From positions 179,075-243,074 of the forward strand of contig NZ_CANLQB010000008.1 in NCBI RefSeq assembly GCF_947493125.1: a stretch of 64,000 nt of DNA, read 5' to 3'. Origin of the DNA: an uncultured Roseobacter sp. (GTDB lineage: Bacteria; Pseudomonadota; Alphaproteobacteria; Rhodobacterales; Rhodobacteraceae). Of the stretch, positions 25,884 through 28,549 are shown one piece after another (within the stretch, counting starts at the first letter, position 1; every line of letters begins with the position of its first letter). The notes beneath the pieces are model-generated. The model ran no database searches, had not been told where the DNA came from, and saw nothing but the letters and a program-made list of their open reading frames with translations. Position numbers and translations under genes: made by a program.

Positions 25884-26171
25884 TCAGACGTTGAACACGT
25901 CCGCCCAGTCCGGGTGCTTGCGCCGCTGGGCGTTCACGAAGGGACAGAGCGGGACGATCTTGAACCCCTCGGCGCGCGCATCCTCGACCAGCCGGATCAC
26001 CAGCGCTTCCCCTGCGCCGGTGCCGCGCAGCGCCTCGGGCACGGCGGTGTGATCGGCAATCACCGTTTGCGGCGAGAGGATGGAATAAGTCAGATCCGCC
26101 TCATGCCCGTCGCGGACCAGCACATAGCGGCCCTTGGCGCCCTCGACGACGCGGGTGATCGGATCAGACAA
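25884..26171 (-). CDS. Small GNAT-like N-acetyltransferase (YjdJ type)
   Basis: '[41 protein letters not shown]'. Confidence 0.85.
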
Positions 26172-26787
26172 GTGTCGCCTCGGTGGCGGCGCGCAGTTCC
26201 TCTTCCGTCACGCCCTCGGCGGTCTCGACGATCTTCAGCCCGCCCTCGACCACGTCGAGCACGCCGAGGTTGGTGATGATCCGGTCGACCACACCCTTGC
26301 CGGTGAGCGGCAGGGTGCAGTCTTTCAGCAGCTTCGACTCGCCGTGCTTGTTGGTGTGGTCCATGACAACGATGACGCGCCCGACGCCGGCGACGAGGTC
26401 CATCGCCCCGCCCATGCCCTTGACGAGCTTGCCGGGGATCATCCAGTTGGCGAGATCGCCGTTCTCGGCCACTTCCATGGCACCGAGGATGGCGGCGGCG
26501 ATCTTGCCGCCGCGGATCATGCCGAAGCTGGTGGCGCTGTCGAAATAGGAGGTGCGGCGCAGCTCGGTGATGGTCTGCTTGCCGGCGTTGATCAGGTCCG
26601 CGTCCTCTTCACCCTCCAGCGGGAAGGGGCCCATGCCGAGCATGCCGTTTTCGGACTGCAGGGTGATGTCCTTGTCGCCCACGTAGTTCGCCACCAGCGT
26701 CGGGATGCCGATGCCGAGATTGACATACATGCCGTCTTCCAGTTCCTCGGCCGCGCGGGCGGCCATTTGATTGCGGTCCCAAGGCAT
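26164..26787 (-). CDS. 3-oxoacid CoA-transferase subunit B
   Basis: [30 protein letters not shown]; CoA transferase family I subunit B. Confidence 0.93.
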
Positions 26788-26796
26788 CAGGTGATC

Positions 26797-27825
26797 CTAT
26801 TCTGTGATGGAAGCGCCCGCAGGCACATCGATGGTGACAAAACTGCCCGCAGCACCCCGGCCAAGCTGCAGCGTGCCCTCCAGCCCCTCGATCAGGCCGT
26901 TCACGATGCGGCCGCCGACGGTGGAGGGGTTGGGCCAGGACATGGTCTGCGGGATGCCGACGCCGTCGTCGGAGACGGTGACGCGCAGCCCGCCGGCGCT
27001 GAGCTGCGACATGCGCACCTCGACGAGCCCGGTGTCGATCCGCTCGAAGGCGTGCATGAAGGCGTTGGTCAGCACTTCCGAGACCACGAGGCCGACGCGG
27101 CTGGCCGTCTCGATGGGCACTTCCAGCGGATCGATCTGCATGTTGAGGCGAATGCCGGAGCGGCCATAGACATGGCCGATGGCGCAGCAGAGCCGCGACA
27201 GGTAGCTCGCCATCTGGATATGGTCGCGGTTGGAGTGCTGATCGGAGAGCTTCATCTCTTCGTAGAGCAGCTGCAGCGTCTCGATCCGGCGGCTGAGCGC
27301 GGCATATTCGGCGGGCACCGAGGTGGAGTTCGACTGGTGCCGGATCATGCCGATGATCATCGACATATCGGTCTCGACCCGGTCCTGGATCTCGGTCAGT
27401 TGCGCGTTGATCTTCTCGGGCGCGCTGCCGCGCTCTTCTTGGCGCAGCTCCTTCTGCACGCCGACAAAATACTGCACCTCGCCCGCGTCATCGCAGATCG
27501 GCGCGATCACGAGGCGGTTGAGGAAGGGCTCGCCATTGGCGCGGTAGTTCAGAATGTCGGTGCTGACGGATTCGCGGGCCTCGATCCCGCGGCGAATGAG
27601 ATCGACCGCTGCCTTGTCCGTCTCCTCGCCCTGCAGGAAGCGGCAGTTGCGCCCGATGGCGGCGCTGCGGGCAAAGCCGGTCTGCCGGGTGAAGGCGTGG
27701 TTCACATAGACGATCGGGTTGTCTTCCAAGTGCGGGTTGGTGACCACCATCGACACCTGCGTGCGGCTGAAGCCCTCAAACGCCAGGTCCTCGACCAGAT
27801 CTTTATCAACGGTGTCTGCTGCCAT
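26797..27825 (-). CDS. LOV-domain (blue-light PAS) sensor with HisKA_2/HATPase-like C-terminus
   Basis: LOV signature GRNCRFLQG within 'NPIVYVNHAFTRQTGF...NYRANGEPFLNRLVIAPICDDAGEVQYFVGVQ'; ATPase N-box VVSEVLTNAFMHAF and DDGVGIP; start MAADTVDKD at 27825. Confidence 0.9.
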   Translation of the reverse strand: MAADTVDKDLVEDLAFEGFSRTQVSMVVTNPHLEDNPIVYVNHAFTRQTGFARSAAIGRNCRFLQGEETDKAAVDLIRRGIEARESVSTDILNYRANGEPFLNRLVIAPICDDAGEVQYFVGVQKELRQEERGSAPEKINAQLTEIQDRVETDMSMIIGMIRHQSNSTSVPAEYAALSRRIETLQLLYEEMKLSDQHSNRDHIQMASYLSRLCCAIGHVYGRSGIRLNMQIDPLEVPIETASRVGLVVSEVLTNAFMHAFERIDTGLVEVRMSQLSAGGLRVTVSDDGVGIPQTMSWPNPSTVGGRIVNGLIEGLEGTLQLGRGAAGSFVTIDVPAGASITE

Positions 27826-27835
27826 CGTCGTCACT

Positions 27836-28549
27836 CTACGCTGCGCGCGTGGTCCTTTGTTCGATGCGTTTTTCATGTGCGCCCTGGACGATCCGGTGCA
27901 CATAGATGCCCGGAAGATGGATCGCATCCGGGTCGAGCGTGCCCAGCGGCACGATTTCTTCGACCTCGGCCACGCACACCTTTCCGCACATCGCCGCCGG
28001 CGGGTTGAAGTTGCGCGCGGTTTTGCGGAACACAAGGTTGCCCGAGGGATCCGCCTTCCAGGCCTTCACGATGGAAAGATCCGCGAAGATGCCGCGTTCG
28101 AGGATATAGGTCTCCTCGGCGCCGTCCGGTCCCGTGGGAAACTCCTTGTGCTCCTTGCCCTCGGCGATCACCGTGCCGACGCCTGTCTTGGTATAAAAGC
28201 CGGGGATCCCGCAGCCGCCCGCGCGCATGCGCTCAGCCAGCGTGCCCTGCGGGTTGAACTCCAGCTCCAGCTCGCCGGAGAGATACTGGCGCATGAATTC
28301 GGCGTTTTCCCCCACATAGGAGGAGATCATCTTCTTGACCTGCTTGGTCTGCAACAGGATGCCAATGCCAAAGTCGTCAACGCCCGCATTGTTGGAAGCG
28401 AAGGTGAGATCCTTGGTGCCGGCGTCCTTGATCGCCTGCAACAGCAGTTCAGGGATGCCGCAGAGGCCAAACCCGCCTGCCGCGATCAGCATGCCGTCTC
28501 GCAGCACACCATCCAGCGCCGAGGACGCCGTGTCGTAAATCTTGGTCAT
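27836..28549 (-). CDS. 3-oxoacid CoA-transferase subunit A
   Basis: DGMLIAAGGFGLCGIPELL, SNNAGVDDFGIG, GIPGFYTKTGVGT; CoA transferase family I subunit A. Confidence 0.93.
   Translation of the reverse strand: MTKIYDTASSALDGVLRDGMLIAAGGFGLCGIPELLLQAIKDAGTKDLTFASNNAGVDDFGIGILLQTKQVKKMISSYVGENAEFMRQYLSGELELEFNPQGTLAERMRAGGCGIPGFYTKTGVGTVIAEGKEHKEFPTGPDGAEETYILERGIFADLSIVKAWKADPSGNLVFRKTARNFNPPAAMCGKVCVAEVEEIVPLGTLDPDAIHLPGIYVHRIVQGAHEKRIEQRTTRAA

Follow-up and report, generated by a model that had tools for sequence, protein, structure and literature searches.

The window, i.e. the 64,000-nucleotide stretch of DNA from an uncultured Roseobacter sp. analysed here, carries a gene that is probably the Roseobacter orthologue of ldaP and that, by analogy, would code for a phosphorylation-independent, blue-light-switched antirepressor of PpsR. 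LdaP (Dshi_1135), from Dinoroseobacter shibae, counteracts the photosynthesis repressor PpsR, as an antirepressor that is active in the dark and inactivated by blue light (PMC10890935). The window protein carries the annotation of a blue-light histidine kinase but is almost certainly no kinase. It is one of an entire clade of such proteins, a further member of a recently described kind and not a new sort of light-gated kinase. The features of the gene and of its neighbours are given in Table 1.

Table 1. Features of the LOV gene locus (positions in the window)
Feature	Position	Strand	Details
scoB, 3-oxoacid CoA-transferase subunit B	26164..26787	minus	TIGR02428, 319.5 bits; 9 bp downstream of LOV gene
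LdaP-like LOV protein gene	26797..27825	minus	342 aa, ATG at 27825; identified by domains, EL346 match, LdaP clade
CA (ATP-binding) domain, residues 201-337	26815..27225	minus	E250, N254, D286, G288, G290, G304 conserved
DHp-like two-helix region, residues 136-200	27226..27420	minus	without phospho-acceptor
Asp153 codon	27367..27369	minus	second His at this position in kinases
Asp148 codon	27382..27384	minus	site of EL346 His142
LOV domain, residues 20-128	27442..27768	minus	GRNCRFLQG motif
Photoactive Cys61 codon	27645-27643	minus	within LOV domain
scoA, 3-oxoacid CoA-transferase subunit A	27836..28549	minus	TIGR02429, 222.9 bits; 10 bp upstream of LOV gene

The phospho-acceptor histidine is missing

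An earlier note on this DNA, made from the sequence alone, had described a LOV flavin-cysteine signature, an ATPase-like C-terminus and, between them, an Asp in place of the phosphorylated His. The first two are intact: Pfam found PAS_9 at residues 26-127 and HATPase domains at 236-335, the ATP-site motifs are complete, and Cys61 of the GRNCRFLQG signature is invariant across a 41-row alignment. The protein scored 165.8 with the NCBIfam profile BluLightHisKinLov, the cut-off being 450.

As to the Asp, the note had proposed an HMM search and an AlphaFold model as checks. The HisKA_2 profile does match, weakly, at residues 145-219 (23.5 bits for a Pfam cut-off of 22.3). The closest PDB structure is EL346 (4r3a, E 5e-89), of which the segment LAEVQHRVKNHLAMIVSMIR aligns to LTEIQDRVETDMSMIIGMIR of the window protein, so that Asp148 faces the acceptor His142. 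The model, built with orthologues (mean pLDDT 84), has EL346 as its best Foldseek match (44% identity) and places residue 148 within the first long DHp helix (136-162). Alignment and model thus agree with the note on the position of the Asp. The loss goes beyond the acceptor defining HisKA_2/HWE kinases, the HRVKNH box of EL346 being DRVETD in the window protein, with K151, N152 and H153 replaced as well.

Forty relatives likewise lack the acceptor His. Their residue 148 is N (16), D (12), S (7), R (2) or else A, G or E, and 38 of them have Asp at position 153, which excludes chance or a sequencing error as the origin of Asp148. The His-bearing comparison set has H148, K151, N152 and H153 without exception.

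The same note had suggested that another His, e.g. that of MIRHQ, might serve as acceptor. This is not supported: H163 is a His in just three of the 40 His-less relatives, and as no other His of the dimerisation region is conserved among them, a substitute acceptor there is unlikely. More generally, the protein might be active as a kinase or ATPase by way of some other phospho-residue, and the ATP site would allow it: the residues required in HisKA_2/HWE kinases (E250, N254, D286, G288, G290 and G304) are all present in the window protein and conserved in at least 39 of the 40 His-less relatives. However, besides the lack of a conserved DHp His and the variability of position 148, the H-box has also lost its supporting Lys and Asn, and LdaP, which photocycles, shows neither 32P incorporation nor a Phos-tag shift, i.e. 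does not autophosphorylate (PMC10890935). We regard phosphorylation at another residue as very unlikely. The pseudokinase proposed in the earlier note survives, then, on a clade-wide loss and on a tested orthologue that the note had missed, LdaP, whose function is independent of phosphorylation. The light-gated ATPase also considered in the note is a hypothetical activity, with which the conserved ATP-site motifs would be compatible.

Nor does the protein look like the relic of a decaying kinase, a reading that the loss of key catalytic residues might invite. All domains, DHp included, are under strong purifying selection: in seven pairs of close relatives dN/dS was 0.04-0.17 for the whole gene and 0.02-0.13 for the DHp region. 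Of the 19 genomes of the genus, 18 gave the orthologue in a protein search and, in D. shibae, LdaP is essential for pigment, the ldaP mutant being colourless (PMC10890935). Decay is thus hardly credible.

Origin of the His-less clade

A family-wide search for relatives covered 397 genomes. In a tree of 59 sequences, from which the H-box columns and the longest branches were left out, the His-less proteins form one clade that includes LdaP (support 96/97), and one change of His state is needed; a faster tree, in which more long-branch rows were included, needs three. Since the more careful tree requires a single change at a well-supported split, the acceptor His was most likely lost once, after which residue 148 would have drifted. 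An additional, distant His-less protein from a Hellea MAG (L116), on a very long branch, was set aside. A His-bearing relative (L185, genome G080) reads GRNWRFLLG, with Trp replacing the photoactive Cys.

In this set, L041 was matched to LdaP by published traits. LdaP is 338 aa long, with GRNCRFLQ at 58-65, Cys61, and Arg148 where EL346 has His (PMC10890935); L041 has this size and all these landmarks, lies within the His-less clade and shares 54% identity with the window protein. That some EL346-like proteins form a subgroup without the His had already been noted (PMC10359499), and a literature search for HisKA_2 pseudokinases gave no match. What is new here is the single loss of the His, the usual location of the clade between scoA and scoB, and the distribution of PpsR and PhyR across His-less and His-bearing relatives.

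The scoA-scoB locus

The LOV gene has scoA and scoB as its neighbours and, as the earlier note had remarked, no response regulator adjoins it. The scoA-LOV-scoB order is kept by orthologues in many genera of the family and is the usual site for the His-less clade, L041 included; the genes flanking ldaP are not mentioned in the LdaP paper (PMC10890935). Relatives with a canonical HRVKN motif, which by the earlier note's own standard would have told against its reading, do occur at this same site, but they are an outgroup to the His-less clade.

The widespread gene order and the 9-10 bp spacing in the window would suit a LOV protein that regulates the ScoAB CoA-transferase of its own operon. Yet several Roseobacter species have an intact LOV gene at a locus from which scoB, or both sco genes, have gone or where they persist as scraps. 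Because of this decay, upkeep of the LOV gene is independent of intact sco neighbours at the locus. A functional tie to ScoAB was rejected on these grounds, which concern the locus only, and such regulation seems to us most improbable. A literature search joining LOV kinase and CoA-transferase found no match.

PpsR, photosynthesis genes and PhyR across genomes

The genome to which the window belongs has the presumed target. It contains pufM and, in one run, bchF, a B12-binding PpaA-like gene, ppsR and bchG; bchF and the ppaA-like gene are divergent, as described for D. shibae, with TGT-N12-ACA sites between them. Around the LOV gene, such PpsR sites occur in the window in chance numbers only, with none nearby. 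A second LOV protein of the genome (L002, G000:C8:40602-40970, minus strand) has at most 241 aa and a GQNCRFLQG motif, and no kinase part.

PpsR above the curated cut-off was found in 21 of the 22 genomes outside the genus with a His-less protein, versus five of the 19 with a His-bearing protein of the sco clade (p = 7e-6). The one exception among the former is 77% complete and has pufM. In the family sample, a His-less LOV protein occurs in 19 of 168 genomes with PpsR and in one of 229 without, and that one has pufM. The distribution of PhyR goes the other way: a PhyR-type match was present in all 19 His-bearing sco-clade genomes versus 15 of the 22 His-less ones outside the genus (p = 0.01), PhyR being counted by hand from long ORFs that scored 66 bits or more, as PF22029 also matches ECF sigma factors. 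Since the His was lost once, these PpsR and PhyR counts are non-independent events and an independent-pairs test is powerless; the distribution is consistent with a change of partner, short of proof.

Within the genus, PpsR and pufM occur together in 17 of the 19 genomes. The LOV gene is missing from one of the two genomes without them and kept in the other. The latter is the complete genome G010, where an intact scoA and the LOV gene are found with no adjoining scoB (L195:3566-5308), and it is the sole genome in which the LOV protein persists without PpsR.

The PhyR data bear on another explanation, that the protein has retained a role in the general stress response, in which it would bind PhyR or PhyR's kinase and so inhibit or dephosphorylate PhyR. 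Its His-bearing relatives at the same locus come from genomes that all have PhyR, that response involves related HWE/HisKA2 LOV kinases (PMC12148442), and the window's own genome codes for PhyR and an EcfG-like sigma factor as well as for a distinct HisKA_2 kinase whose HHRVKNN motif is intact. Against this, seven of the 22 genomes with a His-less protein from outside the genus lack a PhyR-type match, when 21 have PpsR; and in the LdaP pull-downs PpsR was enriched and no response regulator was (PMC10890935). A retained stress role is, on balance, improbable. The stress module of PhyR, sigma factor and HisKA_2 kinase (L194:3932-7289, contig C10 of G000, about 24-27 kb) shares a 139-kb contig with pufM (50 kb) and ppsR (91 kb). 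Stress module and photosynthesis cluster are linked here, as they apparently are across much of the genus.

Proposed function

The window protein combines a LOV photoactive Cys, a DHp region without His, membership of the LdaP clade and a genome with PpsR and photosynthesis genes; its sequence, its clade, these genomic partners and the selection on it are direct observations. LdaP binds PpsR mainly in the dark, which relieves the repression of photosynthesis genes (PMC10890935), and PpsR binding under light control is attributed to the window protein on the model of LdaP. Bound to PpsR in the dark, the protein would hold the repressor away from photosynthesis promoters; in blue light, formation of the flavin-Cys61 adduct would lead to release of PpsR which, once freed, would shut down the photosynthesis genes. 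The DHp and ATP-binding domains would be kept as a protein-binding scaffold, with no phosphate transfer, and the ATP site may still bind nucleotide. Three points count against an antirepressor: the LOV gene kept without PpsR in G010, the single loss of the His behind the PpsR association, and Asp148 instead of the Arg148 of LdaP.

Tentatively, one may go further and imagine that a light-sensing stress kinase lost phosphotransfer once and became a stoichiometric binder of a new partner, passing from PhyR to PpsR, its retained ATP site giving photosynthesis control a second input, one that senses energy. The natural series at one locus, with His-bearing proteins in PhyR genomes and His-less ones in PpsR genomes, offers material for studying a switch from kinase to binding protein. 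Reports of 1989 and 1996, which PMC10890935 cites, describe light repression of bacteriochlorophyll in Roseobacter denitrificans; no name for the blue-light receptor behind it was found in the literature searched, and proteins of the window type are candidates for this receptor.

Comparison with known systems

LdaP is the nearest known system. The two proteins share their length class, LOV motif, missing acceptor His, scoA-scoB site (through L041), occurrence in a ppsR genome, and clade; they differ in that sequence identity is 54% and by residue 148, and function is demonstrated for LdaP alone. EL346, the LOV histidine kinase of Erythrobacter litoralis (PDB 4R3A), has the same domain order and fold but is an active kinase with its acceptor His142 and HRVKNH box. 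The His-bearing LOV kinases at the scoA-scoB site (e.g. L046, L047, L105 and L107) share locus and architecture with the window gene, whereas they have an intact QHRVKNH and belong to genomes with PhyR and mostly without PpsR. AppA of Rhodobacter sphaeroides is likewise a blue-light antirepressor of PpsR, but it is a BLUF/FAD photoreceptor whose fold is unrelated to that of the LOV protein.
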